A stretch of DNA of 36,080 nucleotides, from positions 1 through 36,080 of IMG/VR virus record IMGVR_UViG_3300032046_000106. One strand, written 5' to 3'. The notes beneath the pieces were generated by a model. It did not search any database, was not told the origin of the DNA, and saw only the letters and a program-made list of their open reading frames with translations. Made by a program: the position numbers and the translations under genes. Below are positions 9,223 to 26,057 of the stretch, piece by piece (position 1 is the stretch's first letter; each line of letters starts with the position of its first letter). This DNA is from a virus.

Positions 9223-10236
9223 TTAGTTTTCTAATAACCTCGGTTCTTTCCCCGTCACATTAATTAAATTTAAGATATTTACTTTAATATATTCTGCTAT
9301 TGCCTTCATGAGGTTTGGTAGGACGCTGTTGCCGATCCTTGCTGTTATGGAAACATAGTCACCTACAAAGTCAAAACTGTCGGGATAGGAGTGGCACCTG
9401 CATAGTTCACGGGTAGATAGATTGCGACTGCCATCTGGTAAGAATAAAAAACCAAGTTTGCCAAATGTTGTACTTTTGCTAATTGTCGGGCACGGCTGAT
9501 TACCATCACAGCGAATCCAATTAAAACCATGACCAAATAATTTGCCGATATTCTGCCCCGGCTTTAATAACTGAATACGCTTTACGTAAGTATGATCGGG
9601 GGCAATACGGGGTAATACATCATTGCCTGTAAGATTGGCGATCGCTTGGTTTAAGGTAACTGGCCTTCCCTGTGGTTTTGGGTGACTTGGTTCAACCCCC
9701 AAATCTTCACGGACTCCGATAATGATCACCCGTTCCCTTGACTGAGGGACGTTAAAATACATGGCGTTTAAGACTTCGCCTTTTGCCTTGTAACCGCAAT
9801 CCCTCAGGGTCTTGATGATTTCAAGGTATGCCTGTTTCATGCAGCCTTTTACCATGCCGGTGACGTTTTCCATGACAAACGCCTTCGGTTGCAATTCATC
9901 CAGAAGGCGAGCAAATTCCTTGAAAAGAGAGTTGCGCGGGTCATCCCATTTCCGCTTTCCGGCGGTACTGAATCCCTGGCAGGGCGGTGAACCGTCCAGA
10001 ACATCAAGGACGCCTTTCTTAATTCCGGCAAGCCTCATGCATTCAGCGCCGGTCAGCTTTGTAATATCCCCATGATAGACAGGGACATCCGGGAAGTTAA
10101 GCCGGAAAGTTTCGATGGCATTATCATCCCATTCAACGGCCAACAGTTCCTTGAATCCGGCCATCTGATAACCGAGGCTACTACCCCCACAACCAGCGAA
10201 CGTGCTCACTACTGTTGGTTTTTCAATGCCTTTCAT
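9223..10236 (-). CDS. dcm-like: C5-cytosine DNA methyltransferase (complete)
   Basis: With the start at ATG 10236 (AGAGGT upstream) the enzyme has 337 residues. All main motifs are visible in order: motif I FAGCGGSSLGYQMAG, motif IV DGSPPCQGFS with the catalytic Cys, motif VI VMENV, motif VIII QSRERV, and motifs IX/X RELCRCHSYPDSF ... ARIGNSVLPNLM. It methylates C5 of cytosine, probably to protect phage DNA from host restriction. The open frame continues upstream for at least 59 more codons, but that part is the C-terminus of another methyltransferase (see 10237-10448), so the apparent 396-residue protein is a false fusion. It follows a ParB-like gene, a pairing often seen in phages. Confidence 0.88.
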   Translation of the reverse strand: MKGIEKPTVVSTFAGCGGSSLGYQMAGFKELLAVEWDDNAIETFRLNFPDVPVYHGDITKLTGAECMRLAGIKKGVLDVLDGSPPCQGFSTAGKRKWDDPRNSLFKEFARLLDELQPKAFVMENVTGMVKGCMKQAYLEIIKTLRDCGYKAKGEVLNAMYFNVPQSRERVIIIGVREDLGVEPSHPKPQGRPVTLNQAIANLTGNDVLPRIAPDHTYVKRIQLLKPGQNIGKLFGHGFNWIRCDGNQPCPTISKSTTFGKLGFLFLPDGSRNLSTRELCRCHSYPDSFDFVGDYVSITARIGNSVLPNLMKAIAEYIKVNILNLINVTGKEPRLLEN

Positions 10237-10448
10237 GAAGGGTACCTCTCTGATATTTTCTGCAATCGCTCGCATTAAATTAGGCGGAACCGAATTTCCG
10301 ATCCTGTCTTTTATCTGCTTATAAGTTCCTGAAAAAATATAATCATCTGGAAATGATTGAATCCGTTTCATCTCTGAAATCAAGACAGGTCGGGGATGTT
10401 CATAATGAAACATTGAATAAGTCGCATCCCCGTTTTTTGTAAAAGCCG
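10237..10448 (-). pseudogene. C-terminal remnant of a second C5-methyltransferase
   Basis: Read in frame with the complete enzyme, this stretch encodes HYEHPRPVLISEMKRIQSF, then PDDY and later DRIGNSVPPNLMRAIAENI, which are motifs IX and X, the end of a C5-methyltransferase. No motif I, IV, VI or VIII precedes them. The frame stays open up to about 10449, where the HNH gene begins on the other strand. The matching first eight residues are found at 10983-11006. The middle of the gene, including the catalytic Cys, is gone. Confidence 0.8.
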
Positions 10449-10985
10449 GTGATGGTTTATCTGGATCAAGCCTTTCGCAGGCGATCCCGGTTTTGTTCTA
10501 ATCTTTGCAGTGCCCAATGGCATTATGAACGAAAGAATAAAGTCCAGAGGGAAAGGCCATGCAGGGAATGTCAAACCGTTTTTCCTTATGACGGAACGGG
10601 ACATCTTAACTTTTGCTCTGATAAATGCGCGAGCACCGCGGCCTCTCGCGTCAAGGTTGCTAATGCTCGAACCGCCGCCCAGTGGCGGAATGATCATCCG
10701 AATGAAACGGCGGGATATAGAGAAGTTCAAAAAGAAAGGAATCCTGAATCCATCAAGAGTGGAATTACTCAAAGATTTTTTGTCAAATATCCTCATATTC
10801 CGTATCAATGCCAAGTCTGCGGAGAAAAGAGAATCGTTGAACTTGCTCATAAAGTCGCCCGGAATGGTGCATGGCGCACGTTCGGAAACACTGGCGAAAA
10901 AGATGTCTGGATTCTCTGCCCTACCTGCCATCGATTGCTTGACCTCGGTATCTGCACCAAAAAACAGTTGAACCTTATCCCTTGA
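10449..10985 (+). CDS. HNH endonuclease, homing type, inserted in a methyltransferase gene
   Basis: The protein has 178 residues and is on the opposite strand to nearly all other genes. Two treble-clef-like Cys clusters (RFCSNLCSAQWHYERK near 14-29; CRECQTVF and FCSDKC near 38-60) precede an HNH-like core: CQVCGEKRIVELAHKVARNG, then ILCPTCHRLLDLG. It should cut DNA to spread its own gene. The GTG at 10449 is a poor start without a clear ribosome site. A TTTTGTAAA just upstream in another frame could encode the usual first Cys, so the 5' end may carry a small deletion or frameshift. Its stop codon abuts the eight-codon methyltransferase remnant at 10983. Confidence 0.75.
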   Translation: MMVYLDQAFRRRSRFCSNLCSAQWHYERKNKVQRERPCRECQTVFPYDGTGHLNFCSDKCASTAASRVKVANARTAAQWRNDHPNETAGYREVQKERNPESIKSGITQRFFVKYPHIPYQCQVCGEKRIVELAHKVARNGAWRTFGNTGEKDVWILCPTCHRLLDLGICTKKQLNLIP

Positions 10986-11006
10986 TATTACAGTCGGTTT
11001 CACCAT
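10983..11006 (-). pseudogene. N-terminal remnant of the interrupted C5-methyltransferase
   Basis: ATG at 11006 starts MVKPTVIS, which matches EKPTVVS just before motif I of the complete methyltransferase. The match stops exactly where the HNH gene ends on the other strand. The ATG overlaps the end of the ParB-like gene, as expected for the original start. Reading on in this frame gives only antisense of the HNH gene. Confidence 0.7.
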
Positions 11007-11694: not shown

Positions 11695-11700
11695 GGGTTA

Positions 11701-11760
11701 AATCCTTGCCTCGCCGAGTCACGCTTTACCACGCCTTGCCAAGCCCGGCCGAACCCAGCC
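11701..11760 (-). repeat. GGCNN pentamer array A
   Basis: Exactly 12 pentamers in unbroken register (NNGCC on the plus strand, GGCNN on the coding strand), starting next to the HTH gene with the conserved end AATCC-TTGCC and ending in GAGTTAA. Four inner units are degenerate (GACTC, AGCGT, GGTAA, GGTTC on the minus strand) but keep the 5-base spacing, so this looks like the oldest copy. It fills most of the gap between the 193-residue gene and the HTH gene. Confidence 0.9.
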
Positions 11761-11772
11761 GAGTTAATCTTT

Positions 11773-12354
11773 TTAAAACTCAGCAATAAATCTTCCAAAT
11801 CTTGGTCTATATGTTCCAAATCCAATTTCAGTACCCCCCTTAGAGAACCAATCTTTGATTACATCAACAGTTATTAAGGGATTTTTAAAAACTGTTACAT
11901 TGAAAATAAGTTCCCATGGAGTCTCAAGCATAGGTCGAATCTTAGGGGATGGTATAATAAGCCTTCCTTTTTGTATCATGGCTTTGTGGTGCATCACTCT
12001 GATTTTCCCTATAGAATCGTATTCATTTTTAAAACCATGAAAAACTATTGGCTTATCCTCCCTCAAAAATGGAATGAATTCCGGTTGTACCGAAACATAA
12101 GACATACCTATCATTTTATATTCTTTCCATTTTTTCTTTTCAAATCTCATGGCACATCCACCTGGTTTCTCCCCAAATAAAAACGAATAAATATTCTCCG
12201 ATGGTAAATACAATTCATTATCTGGGGTGAGGTACATCTTATTTTCTGGCGGTCTATCATTTTCTGACATATCAATGAACCGATCAAAAAGAATACTAAC
12301 CATACCTTTTGTTTTCATTGTTATTGTTTCACATCCCTCTTCCTTTTTTTTCAT
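11773..12354 (-). CDS. Phage protein of unknown function, possibly RAMP-like fold
   Basis: The protein has 193 residues. The end (GGTEIGFGTYRPRFGRF) and a middle stretch (NELYLPSENIYSFLFG) resemble a conserved phage protein group, in which a similar glycine-rich G-x-G-x-(W/Y)RP-x-(F/Y)GRF ending is seen and which I associate, with low certainty, with RAMP-like (Cas7-like) folds. No catalytic residues can be named. It begins with a clear ribosome site (AAAGGAG, six bases upstream), directly after GGCNN array B, and is followed by array A. Codon use and A-rich coding suggest no difference from neighbours. Confidence 0.65.
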   Translation of the reverse strand: MKKKEEGCETITMKTKGMVSILFDRFIDMSENDRPPENKMYLTPDNELYLPSENIYSFLFGEKPGGCAMRFEKKKWKEYKMIGMSYVSVQPEFIPFLREDKPIVFHGFKNEYDSIGKIRVMHHKAMIQKGRLIIPSPKIRPMLETPWELIFNVTVFKNPLITVDVIKDWFSKGGTEIGFGTYRPRFGRFIAEF

Positions 12355-12372
12355 CTGTTCTCCTTTTTTTAA

Positions 12373-12442
12373 AATCCTTGTCTTGCCAGGCCGTGCCGAG
12401 CCTCGCCTTGCCCCGCCGCGCCTTGCCTAGCCATGCCACGCC
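12373..12442 (-). repeat. GGCNN pentamer array B
   Basis: Fourteen pentamers in perfect register; 12 are exact GGCNN, the last two on the coding strand are GACAA and GGATT. The dinucleotide NN differs from unit to unit (GT, AT, TA, AA, GC, GG and so on). The upstream flank is TAAACCG, whose TAA is the stop of the preceding gene. The downstream end, GGCAA-(GACAA)-GGATT, is followed by an A-rich stretch and the ribosome site of the 193-residue gene. Confidence 0.95.
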
Positions 12443-12446
12443 CGGT

Positions 12447-12734
12447 TTATTTATTTTTTTCCATCAACATACCTTTCATTACGGGATTGGTAAGTTCGAT
12501 ATATTTCTTTCTGAGTTTTTCATCTTTTGGTAGATACTGAATAAGCCTTAAGGAAAATGAACGGTCTGTATTGTTTTGTATCTGTCGAATATGATGAGCT
12601 TTCAACCCTCGTGAAACTGCCTTATCTGCAATCTTAATCATATCCGTTCCCGCCCGTTTTCCCTCAAAATATTCAGTTAGAATACTCAATGCTTTGTCCC
12701 CTTGAACGATTACTTTTTCAACAAAATCTTCCAT
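12447..12734 (-). CDS. Helical protein of unknown function
   Basis: The start chosen, ATG 12734, has GGAGGA six bases upstream and gives 95 residues. A longer frame from TTG at 12803 would translate array C and is probably not used. The product is charged and almost wholly helical (FVEKVIVQGDKALSILTEYF, DMIKIADKAVSRGLKAHHI). I recognise no family. The stop codon lies in the flank of array B, and array C lies just upstream, so the gene is framed by two arrays. Confidence 0.65.
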   Translation of the reverse strand: MEDFVEKVIVQGDKALSILTEYFEGKRAGTDMIKIADKAVSRGLKAHHIRQIQNNTDRSFSLRLIQYLPKDEKLRKKYIELTNPVMKGMLMEKNK

Positions 12735-12756
12735 TTCTTCCTCCTTTTTTTTTATT

Positions 12757-12811
12757 ATCCCTTGCCATGCCATGCCTAGCCACGCCTTGCCGTGCCCTGC
12801 CAAGCCCTGCC
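12757..12811 (-). repeat. GGCNN pentamer array C
   Basis: Eleven pentamers in perfect register: ten exact GGCNN and a closing GGGAT. Upstream flank TTAACCG, downstream A-rich tract with nine A and then GGAGG and the ATG of the 95-residue gene. Translation of the array gives a repeating MAGHGKAWLGMAWQG-like peptide that should not be taken as protein. Confidence 0.95.
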
Positions 12812-12842
12812 CGGTTAAACATTACGACGATCAAAGCGGCAC

Positions 12843-14791: not shown

Positions 14792-15075
14792 TTCCACACC
14801 ATATTTCCCTTTTTGGTAATCTTCATTTTCAATAATTTCCCTGTTTTCAGGTTAATCCTATCAAACGAAACACCTAACATCTTTGATACCTCAAGGGGTA
14901 TTGGGCCGTCAAAGATTCCTCCGGTTCCGGGAGTGTCTTTCTTGCAGTCGTAACACCATATCTGACCGTAAAATTCACTCCAATCCAAATTATCACCATT
15001 ACATAAATCACATTTTATTTCATAAGAACTGGGTTTTTGGGCATAACACCAAGTTCTTAGTTTTTTCTTTTTCAA
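14788..15075 (-). CDS. Small zinc-ribbon protein
   Basis: The protein has 95 residues. Cys pairs in IKCDLCNGDNLDWSEF and IWCYDCKKDTPGTGGIF form a zinc ribbon; FDGPIPLEVSKMLGVSFDRI follows. I know similar small phage proteins with a CY(A)Q-P-x-x-Y-x-I-x-CD start; the function is unknown. The start is a TTG overlapping the stop of the GIY-YIG gene, with GGAAGAG upstream. A 24-residue N-terminal relative of this protein lies on the other side of the GIY-YIG gene (15842-15916), so the endonuclease has invaded this locus. Confidence 0.75.
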   Translation of the reverse strand: MKKKKLRTWCYAQKPSSYEIKCDLCNGDNLDWSEFYGQIWCYDCKKDTPGTGGIFDGPIPLEVSKMLGVSFDRINLKTGKLLKMKITKKGNMVWK

Positions 15076-15842
15076 TTTCTCTTCCTATTTTTAGCCGAAA
15101 TACTCATTTTAAAGCGAGCTTCTTTTGATCTTTGTTTTCCCTTCCAATAAGAAAGTTGTCCCTTTTTAGATTCGGATATTTTCTTTTTTGTTTCTTCTGA
15201 AACCACATGTCCCCTTAAGGAATTACTTATTTTTTGTTTTGAATTTTCCGAATGATGCAAGCCTGTCCAATTATGATTTGGGCGATTCTTGGCAGCTATA
15301 CTCAGTTTAATTTTAGTTTCATAAGAACGCTTTAGGCCTTTTTGCCCATTCGGTTTTCCCTTCCTACTTAAACTCAATTTTTCCTTGTGTATGTCGGAAA
15401 AAACTCTGCCTTTCAGAGTTCTACTTCTATTCTCCCTTTCAGATATAGATTGGATTCTTCCCTTATTAGCTTTACTAATTTTATTTCGTGTTACTTCGTT
15501 CACCCCGTGTCCTTTTAGGCTTTGGCTTATCTTACTCTTGGTCTCTCCCGAAAGTTTTTTGTGCTTATTGCCACCAGACTCCAAGTTATATCCATTGTTA
15601 ATTGAATCCAACAGTAAGATGGTTTCGGATTCAACCGAATCTAAATTACAATTTTCAACGTAAAAAAATGACATTTCGAAATTATCTCTTCCGTATTTAT
15701 TGATGGCTCTACTGATAGGCATATTATTTCTATGTCTGCATGTATATAAGTGATGATTGAACCTTTCCCTAACAGATTGTTGGGTCTGACCTACATAGCA
15801 TTTTTCGTTTATTTTATTTCTTAAAATATAAATAAATCCCAT
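15072..15842 (-). CDS. GIY-YIG homing endonuclease (SegA/Mob type)
   Basis: The protein has 256 residues. The GIY-YIG core is at the start: GFIYILRNKINEKCYVGQTQ, then RFNHHLYTCRHRNN and, later, the catalytic Glu in ESETILLLDSINNGYN. The remaining 150 residues hold four to six NUMOD3-like DNA-binding repeats (KISQSLKGHG, KISKANKGR, KLSLSRKGKPNG, KISNSLRGHV, KISESKKGQ). It cuts DNA at its insertion site to spread itself. Its ATG overlaps the stop of a truncated zinc-protein reading frame (TAATG), and its stop overlaps the start of a related zinc-ribbon gene. A/T content is higher than in neighbours, a sign of transfer. Confidence 0.88.
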   Translation of the reverse strand: MGFIYILRNKINEKCYVGQTQQSVRERFNHHLYTCRHRNNMPISRAINKYGRDNFEMSFFYVENCNLDSVESETILLLDSINNGYNLESGGNKHKKLSGETKSKISQSLKGHGVNEVTRNKISKANKGRIQSISERENRSRTLKGRVFSDIHKEKLSLSRKGKPNGQKGLKRSYETKIKLSIAAKNRPNHNWTGLHHSENSKQKISNSLRGHVVSEETKKKISESKKGQLSYWKGKQRSKEARFKMSISAKNRKRN

Positions 15843-21775: not shown

Positions 21776-22346
21776 TTCGGATACCAAAAAGTGTTTCTTG
21801 TTTTATCTTTCGATGTCTGTTTCTTAAAAAGGAATCCATTAATAAGGATGGGTGATCTGGCCTTCGGTGAAATGATAAAATTTCCGTCAAAGTCTGCTCG
21901 CTGATTATTTTCCTTTGCCACTTGATCCATCTCGAATCCTGCGGATTTGTTTTTTCAAATTGCAAAAGAAATACGCCGAAATTTCTTACCAATACGTTTC
22001 TGCCAAGTATTATTGACTTTAAACGTAATGATTTAATTGTTTCTGCATGATGCATATTTCTTCCTTTAATAATCAGACTTTGAGAAATAAATGATAGAAT
22101 ATCTCTTTGTGATTGGTCTGGTTCTGATCCAAATTCTTTTACTTCAACAATCATCATTAATTGAAATTCTCTTCCGTCCGTGTTTGTTTTATAGCGGCAA
22201 ATAATGTGGTCACAATCTGTTCGCACTATTCCACTGCCCGAATCTAACCGGAGATTGTTTCGCATCCATCTTCCGAATCCGGTTTCTGCCGTGGTCCGCC
22301 CCCCGCAATGTTTACAGGTATAATTGACCTTAAAACTCTTGGTCAT
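21759..22346 (-). CDS. Phage protein with probable PD-(D/E)XK nuclease core
   Basis: The protein has 195 residues. A Cys pair (YTCKHCGGRTTAETGFGRWM) is followed by RLDSGSGIVRTDCDHIICRY and GREFQLMMIVEVKEFGSEP, and then SQRDILSFISQ. The Asp in DCDHI and the E-V-K in IVEVKEF fit the D-x(n)-ExK core of restriction-like nucleases. This type of protein is frequent in phages and has no assigned role; the nuclease idea is inference from the motif. Its ATG overlaps the stop of the adenine methyltransferase (ATGA), which suggests a functional link such as a modification-linked nuclease. Confidence 0.6.
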   Translation of the reverse strand: MTKSFKVNYTCKHCGGRTTAETGFGRWMRNNLRLDSGSGIVRTDCDHIICRYKTNTDGREFQLMMIVEVKEFGSEPDQSQRDILSFISQSLIIKGRNMHHAETIKSLRLKSIILGRNVLVRNFGVFLLQFEKTNPQDSRWIKWQRKIISEQTLTEILSFHRRPDHPSLLMDSFLRNRHRKIKQETLFGIRNDHTN

Positions 22347-23410
22347 GCACTAACTCTTTTCATGGCAATTTTCGCTGTTTCTGGATTTATTTCAAATCCT
22401 ATCCATCTGCGATTTAGCTTAATTGCCGCTGCCGCCGTTGTTGCGCTTCCGAGAAACGGATCACAAACAATCCCGTCTTTCGGGCAAAGGCTTTCAATCC
22501 AATACATAGCCTCGGACTTCGCTTGCTGCCAGTCGTGATCGTCCTTCTCTTTTCCACCAGAAATAGTGTCGAAAACGATTTTATTTATTTCGTCTCTCGT
22601 TCCCTTAACAAACCATAACATGGGTTTCCATCCTACACGGATTCCATATTCACGCATTAAAGCTTGTTGTCCTGAATGGATGCAGGCACAAGTCCACCAG
22701 TACCTTAACTTGCCATGAAATGCTTTGAAGATTGAGGGGAGTTGAAGGTGGCCAGCATAGAAGATTATAGACCCACCGTCTGCCAACTTAGATTTAGCAA
22801 ACTCTGCCAGCCCTTCAAAAAGTTCTTCTGATTTTCTATCGTAAGGCGGGTCGGTGAATATCAGAGACAATGAACCATCTGCCACCTTCTCGGAGTGCTT
22901 TCGGAAGTCACCAATAATGATACGGTCATCAAATTTATAGTCATTCGAAGCCTCGGTACGTTTTTTCTTGCGGTCATTTCTCTGCCGATTCTCCTTAACC
23001 TTCTTGACAACCAGGTTGTGATTCAGTTCTTTGCCAGGTTCTACCACCAAAGCCGCTTCAAACTCCGCTTCTGGGACGGCAGCCAATTCCTGTGACCGGC
23101 TGCTTTCCTTCTTCGTTATGCCTTGATCTTTGATAAGTGGGGTTCCATTTGGGAACTCCACTTTTTTACCTATGCCTCTCGCACCTTGCTGTTTCGGCAT
23201 TTTCTCCAGCATTTCCCCTAGTCGGCGTTCGGCACGCAGGCGAATCTCGGCGGCGTAGTTTTGCGTCTCTATCGTTGCACCGATTTGTTTGCCGTAAACG
23301 GCAGCAGCATCAGCTAATGCGATTACTTGCTTCACTTGCTGAAGGTCTTTAGCCTCTGCTAAAAATAATCGAGCTTTATCAATTTTAACAAGAACAAGAT
23401 CAGTATTCAT
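22343..23410 (-). CDS. N6-adenine-type DNA methyltransferase with N-terminal helical domain
   Basis: The protein has 355 residues from ATG 23410. The first 150 residues are helical and charged (AEIRLRAERRLGEMLEKMP), a domain often found before phage methyltransferases. The catalytic half has motif IV LIFTDPPYDRKSEELFEGL and then motif I/X at the end: VCDPFLGSATTAAAAIKLNR, WIGFEINPE. DPPY with this order marks a beta-class enzyme, most likely N6-adenine. It is the first gene of the early operon; its promoter lies so close that the transcript probably has no leader. An upstream TTG start would be part of the -35 box and is rejected. Confidence 0.85.
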   Translation of the reverse strand: MNTDLVLVKIDKARLFLAEAKDLQQVKQVIALADAAAVYGKQIGATIETQNYAAEIRLRAERRLGEMLEKMPKQQGARGIGKKVEFPNGTPLIKDQGITKKESSRSQELAAVPEAEFEAALVVEPGKELNHNLVVKKVKENRQRNDRKKKRTEASNDYKFDDRIIIGDFRKHSEKVADGSLSLIFTDPPYDRKSEELFEGLAEFAKSKLADGGSIIFYAGHLQLPSIFKAFHGKLRYWWTCACIHSGQQALMREYGIRVGWKPMLWFVKGTRDEINKIVFDTISGGKEKDDHDWQQAKSEAMYWIESLCPKDGIVCDPFLGSATTAAAAIKLNRRWIGFEINPETAKIAMKRVSA

Positions 23411-23417
23411 AGGTGAT

Positions 23418-23446
23418 AACTTACTGCTACCAGAAAAAGTTGTCAA
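23418..23446 (-). promoter_or_regulatory. Early promoter for the methyltransferase operon
   Basis: TTGACA (23446-23441), 17-base spacer, TAAGTT (23423-23418) on the minus strand. The ATG of the methyltransferase is at 23410, seven bases after the -10 box, where transcription should begin. It follows the lysis-group terminator, so it opens a new unit. Confidence 0.7.
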
Positions 23447-24947: not shown

Positions 24948-26057
24948 ATGAAACTTACCTTGCAGATAAAACTTTTGCCTTCCGATGAACAGGCTAAATT
25001 TCTTCTGACAACTCTTAAAGAAGCTAATATTGCCTGCAATCAGATTTCCGATGTGATATGGAAAGAAAAAGTTTTCAATCAATTTAAAGCTCACCATCTT
25101 GTTTACCACCCCTTGAAAAAGGCTACCCGGCTTTCTGCTCAGATGCTTGTCAGATGTATTAGTAAAGTAGTTGACGCTTATAAACTTGACAAGAAAGTCC
25201 AGAGAAGGTTCAAGCCTTTTGGTGCAATAACATACGATCCTCGCATTCTTTCCTATAAAGAAACCTCTGTTTCTATCTGGTCTATTGATGGCAGATTGAA
25301 AATCCCCTTTGTTTGCCATAACCCTAAATATCTGCCTTATATCAAAGGTGAGGCTGACCTTATTACAAAGAAGGGCAAGTTCTATCTTTTTCAGACGGTT
25401 GAAATTCCCGAAGAGGATGTTAAGGATATTGAGGAATTTATAGGGGTGGATTTTGGAATAAATAATATTGCCACGCTCTCCGATGGAACAAATTTCGGCT
25501 CTGAAAAGTTGAATCAAGTTAGAGATAAATATTTCAAGGTGCGTAAATCTGTTCAAAGCAAAGGCACTGCAGGAAGCAGAAAGCTTCTGAAACGGCTCAA
25601 AGGTAGAGAACGGAGATTTGCCACTATTACCAATCACACCATAGCAAAGCAAATTGTAGAAAAAGCCAAAACAGAGAGTAAAGGGATTGCTATTGAGGAT
25701 TTGACCCATATCAGGAAAAGAACCACTGTTAGGAAAGCACAAAGACGAAGACATCACTCTTGGGCTTTTGCTCAACTCCGTTCTTTCCTTGAATACAAGG
25801 CAAGGCTTATTGGCATTCCCCTTGTTACAGTTGACCCTCGCTATACGAGTCAGACCTGCAATGTGTGCAAGTGTATTGGCAATAGAAATGGCAAGCACTT
25901 TAGCTGTCCAAACTGCGGCAATATTGCAGATGCCGATATAAATGCGGCTCAGAATATTGCTCAGTTGGGGATCGCTGTAACCGATCCCGAAAAGGTGAAT
26001 ATGTTTAGTTCTCTTATCCATGTTCCCTTAATGCCCCGTCAGCTTGCTGCGGGGTAG
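24948..26057 (+). CDS. tnpB: TnpB, RNA-guided nuclease of IS605-type elements
   Basis: The protein has 369 residues, the usual full length. The RuvC-like catalytic residues are intact: Asp 168 in IGVDFGINNIA, Glu 250 in GIAIEDLTHI, and DAD (328-330) before INAAQN. The zinc finger CNVC (304/307) and CPNC (320/323) precedes the last Asp, as in ISDra2-type TnpB. These enzymes use an omega (re) RNA made from the 3' end of the element to cut the empty donor site, which keeps the element in place. Here the RNA should span roughly 25900-26058 with its guide in the bases right after the element (inference). Its 3' end runs into the right-end hairpin. Confidence 0.9.
   Translation: MKLTLQIKLLPSDEQAKFLLTTLKEANIACNQISDVIWKEKVFNQFKAHHLVYHPLKKATRLSAQMLVRCISKVVDAYKLDKKVQRRFKPFGAITYDPRILSYKETSVSIWSIDGRLKIPFVCHNPKYLPYIKGEADLITKKGKFYLFQTVEIPEEDVKDIEEFIGVDFGINNIATLSDGTNFGSEKLNQVRDKYFKVRKSVQSKGTAGSRKLLKRLKGRERRFATITNHTIAKQIVEKAKTESKGIAIEDLTHIRKRTTVRKAQRRRHHSWAFAQLRSFLEYKARLIGIPLVTVDPRYTSQTCNVCKCIGNRNGKHFSCPNCGNIADADINAAQNIAQLGIAVTDPEKVNMFSSLIHVPLMPRQLAAG

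Follow-up and report, generated by a model that had tools for sequence, protein, structure and literature searches.

Among C5-methyltransferases (C5-MTases), M.AquI is a split enzyme, a laboratory permutation pathway of M.HaeIII is said to have been described by Peisajovich in 2006, and the phage enzyme M.phiBssHII, by Sethmann et al. in 1999, reportedly carries TRDs at separated locations, one of them at the N-terminus besides the usual place. Naturally permuted C5-MTases and a permutation-by-duplication model are described in PMC5944983; the natural cases are M.BssHII, M.Alw26I, M2.Eco31I, M.Esp3I, and M2.BsaI, with the new end always in the variable region. Likewise, PMC2988022 describes free-standing phage homing genes that split nrdA (Aeh1 mobE) and gene 60/topoisomerase (T4 mobA), with co-conversion of the flanks. 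Finally, the phage cytosine carboxymethyltransferase CmoX needs Arg350 where M.HhaI has Asn304 (PMC12783734).

Here, we compare with these systems a methyltransferase locus in IMG/VR virus record IMGVR_UViG_3300032046_000106 (36,080 bases, positions 1 to 36,080; "the window" below is this whole stretch). Like the free-standing phage homing endonucleases (T4 mob/seg) described in PMC2988022, the locus has an HNH gene lodged inside a conserved phage gene, at a site critical to it, and flanking sequence appears to travel along with it. Unlike the homing genes described there, the HNH gene of the window is antisense, its target is motif I of a DNA methyltransferase, the recipient start stays as a stub with a complete enzyme carrying its own start on the opposite side, and the case is known from sequence. 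We consider it fairly probable that, in a homing-like event, an HNH gene entered a ParB-linked C5-MTase gene at motif I, in antisense orientation and with an intact MTase alongside.

Below, N denotes the catalytic half of a C5-MTase (motifs I-VIII) and C the TRD-IX-X half. On the minus strand, from 11512 downward, the locus runs from a ParB-like gene through a stub, the plus-strand HNH gene, and C1 to N2-C2 (Table 1). Elsewhere, the window encodes a GIY-YIG endonuclease with NUMOD3 motifs (15072-15842, minus), a second homing-type nuclease in this phage; a TnpB-like gene (OrfB_IS605, Cas12f1-like TNB; 24948-26057, plus) on the strand opposite to most genes; and a second DNA methyltransferase of the N6/N4 type (22343-23446, minus). 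Between the small ORFs of 11700-12815, the intergenic stretches are rich in CCTTGCC/GCCATGCC-like repeats.

Table 1. Positions of features at the methyltransferase locus of the window, and contigs of relatives with modular C5-MTases.
Feature	Location	Strand	Basis
ParB-like gene, upstream of C5-MTase in the phage family	11000..11512	-	ORF; PHROG 620/498
8-codon stub MVKPTVIS, canonical C5-MTase start severed before motif I (TFAGCGG)	10983..11006	-	
HNH endonuclease gene, antisense to the operon, without ~20 N-terminal residues; stop overlaps stub	10485..10985	+	
Part of the HNH frame antisense to the C1 module, holding the only early start codons of that frame	10443..10484	+	
C1, TRD 3' part and motifs IX-X, in frame with the complete MTase	10243..10491	-	profile search
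AGAGAGG, Shine-Dalgarno-like, 8 nt ahead of the ATG of the complete MTase	10245..10251	-	sequence
Complete C5-MTase (catalytic half N2, 9691-10224; TRD2-IX-X, 9268-9690)	9223..10236	-	PF00145
C-N-C in a single frame (8 contigs)	L122, L123, L125, L126, L127, L128, L138, L338		
C-N-C with broken frame	L124, L140, L176		
Split operon	L318 2908-4980		
Split operon	L321 818-2734		
Split operon	L324 628-2102		
Split operon	L327 3004-4471		

The stub, ATGGTGAAACCGACTGTAATATCA, is read from 11006 down to 10983; its ATG overlaps the stop of the ParB-like gene, whose product ends in CPSCGFRW-stop. In an IMG/VR scan that used another protein as query, so that the peptide itself was not selected for, 5 of the 44 starts among the matches listed (L133, L139, L141, L144, and L145) read MVKPTVIS straight into motif I, and in these five the start overlaps a ParB gene. 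A second scan, with the pattern MVKPTV, returned 87 stretches that are mostly chance readings. The pattern fixes the first six residues and imposes none of ParB overlap, Ser8, or motif I; in 12 distinct readings a ParB 'CxxCxxxW-stop' frame lies upstream, and all 12 continue into motif I. Because the unselected starts and the ParB-linked readings alike run on into motif I, a chance match is ruled out, and MVKPTVIS is the start of a ParB-linked phage C5-MTase severed just before motif I; the preliminary description of the window had read the stub correctly as a methyltransferase start. Its likeness to the canonical starts extends over all 8 residues, which excludes the start of a permuted gene (FHPKAQTKPI...). 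An intron or intein is ruled out as well, in line with that description: the codons after MVKPTVIS are not continued in C1, no frame runs on across the insert, and the HNH gene is antisense.

The HNH gene is inserted relative to the HNH-free alleles L139, L133, and L141, the kind of allele that the preliminary description had suggested looking for. Across the window's MTase family, 101 of 104 locus rows (some of them from a shared contig) have a gap of at most 120 nt between ParB and MTase, too short to hold a gene, and no HNH gene was seen between ParB and MTase in the three rows with a longer gap. In one of these three, L347 (2659-3001), a Vsr-like mismatch endonuclease gene, recognized by eye from its translation, lies between ParB and MTase. 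A relative with the same short remnants and no HNH gene, the case that was to speak against the earlier reading, was not found. A ParB-linked MTase of the same subfamily in L281 (2792-3212; contig shared with L213) has its middle deleted and no HNH gene, while L271 is an intact sibling of it; from its sequence, it shows only that internal deletions can arise without HNH.

The HNH assignment of the plus-strand gene between minus-strand MTase remnants, made from the letters alone, is borne out by PHROG HNH families, which match the ORF (10449-10985) at 6e-7 and 4e-5; Pfam gives no match at 1e-3. The HNH catalytic motif and zinc-binding residues are present, with conserved ELAHK...N...LCPTCHRLLD in the alignment, and the HNH core is 53% identical to that of L359. 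At its 3' end the gene is complete, its stop codon overlapping the eighth codon of the stub. At the other end, which the earlier account had taken as it stood, the gene's own 5' part is missing. The three best PHROG matches begin deep inside their profiles (189/361, 94/183, and 70/138; the first two are the HNH families, and the third is without a named function), and homology to relatives begins in the middle of the first zinc finger. The relatives carry this finger in full; the window copy lacks about 20 residues at its N-terminus, and with them the start codon and the first CxxC. The frame opens at 10443, its only early starts are GTG 10449 and ATG 10452, and the next is TTG 10935, with none between 10453 and 10934. 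Since those early codons lie antisense of C1, the apparent start of the ORF is probably accidental, and the window copy is not the complete gene with its own start that defines a free-standing HNH homing endonuclease. The HNH gene and C1 are thus each cut short at a shared border, near 10473-10491.

A scan of IMG/VR with the HNH core matched 20 stretches, of which 7 were confirmed as relatives (L359-L365); in a first, weak scan none of 5 stretches was confirmed. At the limits used, 50,697 phage records and 72,556 plasmid records yielded no HNH relative (one scan of those records gave 2 matches, only at E 0.3-0.4), and neither did 3 genomes or 398 genomes of one phylum. All seven relatives adjoin a C5-MTase of a distant subfamily with a PCQPFSAAG-type motif IV, and in six the HNH gene is divergent from it. 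Four of the seven (L360, L361, L363, and L362) repeat the layout of complete MTase (minus), HNH (plus), and N-terminal MTase stub (minus), with the stub in the same subfamily as its complete neighbor; these four represent two distinct sequences, as L360, L361, and L363 are near-identical. Their stub breaks off at the FA of motif I and shares bases with the stop codon of the HNH gene; that of the window ends two or three codons earlier. No stub accompanies L359, L364, or L365, and in L359 the MTase follows HNH on the same strand. The gene order of the window thus appears to be the outcome seen in HNH relatives, arrived at in another MTase subfamily.

Compared in 60-nt steps, L362 and L360 are 0.73-0.98 identical over HNH (lowest at its 3' border) and 0.68-0.88 over the first ~350 nt of the complete MTase, about 0.67-0.73 over the stub, 0.13-0.47 over the TRD, and 0.3-0.5 in the DNA past the stub. 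Such a profile would be expected after co-conversion around a homing gene, and in these relatives the HNH gene seems to travel together with the 5' part of the neighboring C5-MTase.

The complete MTase, recognized as such in the preliminary description, is matched over its whole length by PF00145 (E 4.5e-78). Motifs I, IV, VI, VIII, IX, and X are present (FAGCGG, PPCQ, ENV, QSRER, and GNSV), and motif X is GNSVLPNL, against GNSVPP in most relatives. It belongs to the subfamily of the stub: two trees (support 97/81 and 99/78) place N2 as sister to L139, a canonical HNH-free gene whose product starts with MVKPTVIS, and the two are 93% identical in amino acids. The gene has its own ATG (10236), with AGAGAGG eight bases before. 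The locus therefore holds two native-looking starts, MVKPTVIS in the stub and MKGIEKPTVVS in the complete MTase; the KPTVVS codons differ from those of the stub, which shows that the target was not freshly duplicated. In both sequence and fold, the closest solved structure is CmoX (PDB 8YF3). Carboxymethyltransferase identity is ruled out by motif X, where the window MTase has Asn (GNSV) at the position of the Arg350 that CmoX needs for its use of carboxy-SAM (PMC12783734); with Asn there, ordinary SAM methylation is expected of the predicted enzyme. Among relatives, a C5-MTase lies with an annotated tRNA (cmo5U34)-methyltransferase and an asparagine synthase in L116 (2081-6044) and with an asparagine synthase in L113 (2138-4068), neighborhoods that resemble the CmoA-CmoX-ligase clusters described in PMC12783734.

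Between the complete MTase and the HNH gene lies C1, which aligns to positions 54-137 of the 142-position C-half profile (104.9 bits, i-Evalue 3e-31). Motifs IX-X had been placed at 10237-10448; the identification is correct, but the fragment spans 10243-10491. Its nearest relatives are the C-halves of canonical genes (L137, 55%; L139, 51%), and within 10498-10982, where profile scores stay at chance level, nothing else of a first catalytic half was found. C1 continues without a stop, in the same frame, into the complete MTase. The resulting 396-residue ORF had been described as a false fusion; the in-frame continuation is real, and since C-N-C and C-N sequences occur without this HNH gene, the ORF looks like a real arrangement that has decayed, and not simply like an artefact of annotation. 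With C1 partial, the window itself does not have a complete TRD-IX-X on both sides in one frame, as C-N-C enzymes do; C1 is consistent with a TRD-IX-X module joined to the front of the catalytic half, of the C-N-C or C-N type.

N and C profiles run over 107 distinct N-domain DNA sequences gave 86 N-C, 10 C-N-C (one with C2 in another frame), and 5 C-N arrangements, 4 in which N precedes two or three separate C genes, and 2 that have only N. Seven C-N-C loci hold both modules in full, and in these the identity between C1 and C2 is 21-38% in the TRD part and 41-65% in the IX-X part; the corresponding values for L338, in which C1 is partial, are 15% and 37%. The two modules are therefore expected to recognize different sequences. 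In the larger tree (bootstrap not settled, 0.837; L324 is labeled N-C there, though it is a split operon with a frame break), C-N-C rows do not group together but fall among N-C rows, requiring 10 changes, at least 5 of them forced by supported branches; C-N needs 3 changes, at least 2 of them forced.

The circularly permuted C-N group comprises L004, L120, L331, L333, and L349, in which IX-X precedes I-VIII, nothing follows VIII, and every catalytic motif is kept; four of them (L331, L349, L004, and L120) fall in one 29-row clade. Right after ParB, L004 encodes an enzyme of 342 residues ordered TRD-IX-X-I-VIII, whose C-N junction coincides in position with that of the window; L005 has the same sequence, and L006 agrees within the reach of its contig. 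These proteins resemble the natural permuted C5-MTases of PMC5944983 in having TRD-IX-X before I-VIII and a new N-terminus in the variable region, and are unlike them in being phage genes, mostly beside ParB, with C-N-C forms in the same family. The split arrangement is clearest in L318, an operon of ParB, N alone (207 aa), and three C-half genes (157, 146, and 182 aa), each overlapping the preceding gene by a few bases. L321 agrees with L318, L324 has a frame break, and L327 has two C genes; such operons may form a subunit kit for several specificities.

The modular architectures receive supportive evidence at most from structure models. A model of the C-N-C enzyme L126 reached pLDDT 80 (about 85 for the N-terminal IX-X and about 40-80 for the N-terminal TRD), that of the permuted L004, built from 5 sequences, reached pLDDT 73 and pTM 0.70, and Foldseek matches did not single out the extra TRD-IX-X module. 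Of earlier work, M.phiBssHII is the nearest relative of the C-N-C idea: the C-N-C proteins share with it the N-terminal TRD that it reportedly has besides the usual place, and they differ in carrying a TRD with motifs IX-X on both sides, in one frame in 8 contigs, and in being known from sequence.

On this basis, we propose the following course for the window. A free-standing HNH gene, carried with the 5' end of a C-module-first MTase, would have entered a ParB-linked N-C gene at motif I, presumably by cleavage there. Recombination within N would have produced a complete MTase, chimeric or donor, on one side and left the resident start as an 8-codon stub on the upstream operon on the other. 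A later deletion at the C1/HNH border would have removed the start of both HNH and C1, and the in-frame IX-X fragment would be what remains of a TRD-IX-X module ahead of the catalytic half. Stub, HNH, and complete MTase would lie side by side because HNH seems to move, through co-conversion, with the 5' part of the MTase. The enzyme, if active, would survive through the neighboring complete MTase, as this has its own start and a ribosome-site-like sequence. Against this course stand the three stubless relatives, the stub cases that amount to two distinct sequences plus the window, the cut points that differ by 2-3 codons between subfamilies, and the HNH of the window, which is only 35% identical to that of L362 over its length.

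Alternatively, the locus may once have been a tandem, N1-C1 followed by N2-C2, in which HNH landed in the first copy, most of that copy was deleted, and the second keeps the function. This origin, close to the hollowed-out first MTase of the preliminary description, is not supported as it was stated, and we regard it as unlikely, if a serious contender. The two native-looking starts with different codons are in keeping with it, C1 and N2 come from the same subfamily, and the kinship of C1 with canonical C-halves fits a lost tandem copy equally well; together with a report that a phage homing endonuclease drives segments to amplify in tandem (PMC13096335), this kinship keeps the tandem in consideration. 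However, no full N1-C1-N2-C2 was found among viral loci of this clade, and the four NCNC arrangements found are bacterial contigs whose catalytic halves are only 31-44% identical. Moreover, a tandem requires the loss of ~225 codons, if a full first copy existed (the earlier figure of ~250 is not required), and of the stop codon of C1, whereas the C-N-C/C-N architecture directly explains the in-frame C1-N2 junction, and C1-N2 in frame without N1 is in part already seen in the C-N members of the 29-row clade.

A decayed restriction-modification module, with HNH as the nuclease paired with the neighboring C5-MTase, would account for the constant and mostly divergent adjacency in the HNH relatives, but is improbable: it leaves the stubs severed at motif I unexplained, the partner MTases belong to different subfamilies in the window and in the relatives, and the HNH of the window is truncated. 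That illegitimate recombination simply set an unrelated HNH fragment beside MTase fragments can be given very little credence, as, despite the truncation of both genes at the C1/HNH border and the rarity of the HNH family, HNH is intact on the stub side and ends directly against motif I, just as in L360 and L362, a coincidence hardly to be expected twice.

Overall, the insertion account makes the window look like a decayed case of an HNH family landing at motif I, combined with a reshuffling of TRD-IX-X modules round one catalytic half. Searches of the open-access literature gave no description of C-N-C phage C5-MTases, of operons with one N and several C genes, or of this HNH family, which does not prove that none exists. 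More tentatively, and as a possibility we hold well short of conviction, the small HNH family may be specialized on motif I of C5-MTases across distant subfamilies and move with their 5' ends, while the phage MTases that it meets form an interchangeable kit in which one catalytic half takes TRD-IX-X modules before it, after it, at both ends, or as two or three separate subunits. If this is true, each C-N-C enzyme would have two specificities, and such enzymes would be natural intermediates on the way to circular permutation.

Finally, what the locus suggests is an element of homing type whose target is the conserved core of a DNA methyltransferase that the phage itself encodes, and this is seen in two distant subfamilies of MTases. 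The natural C-N-C enzymes are of the kind that the permutation-by-duplication model asks for, namely duplicated, 5'-truncated intermediates, and operons pair one catalytic half with three specificity halves. With these, both the permutation of C5-MTases and the widening of methylation range in phages become directly testable.
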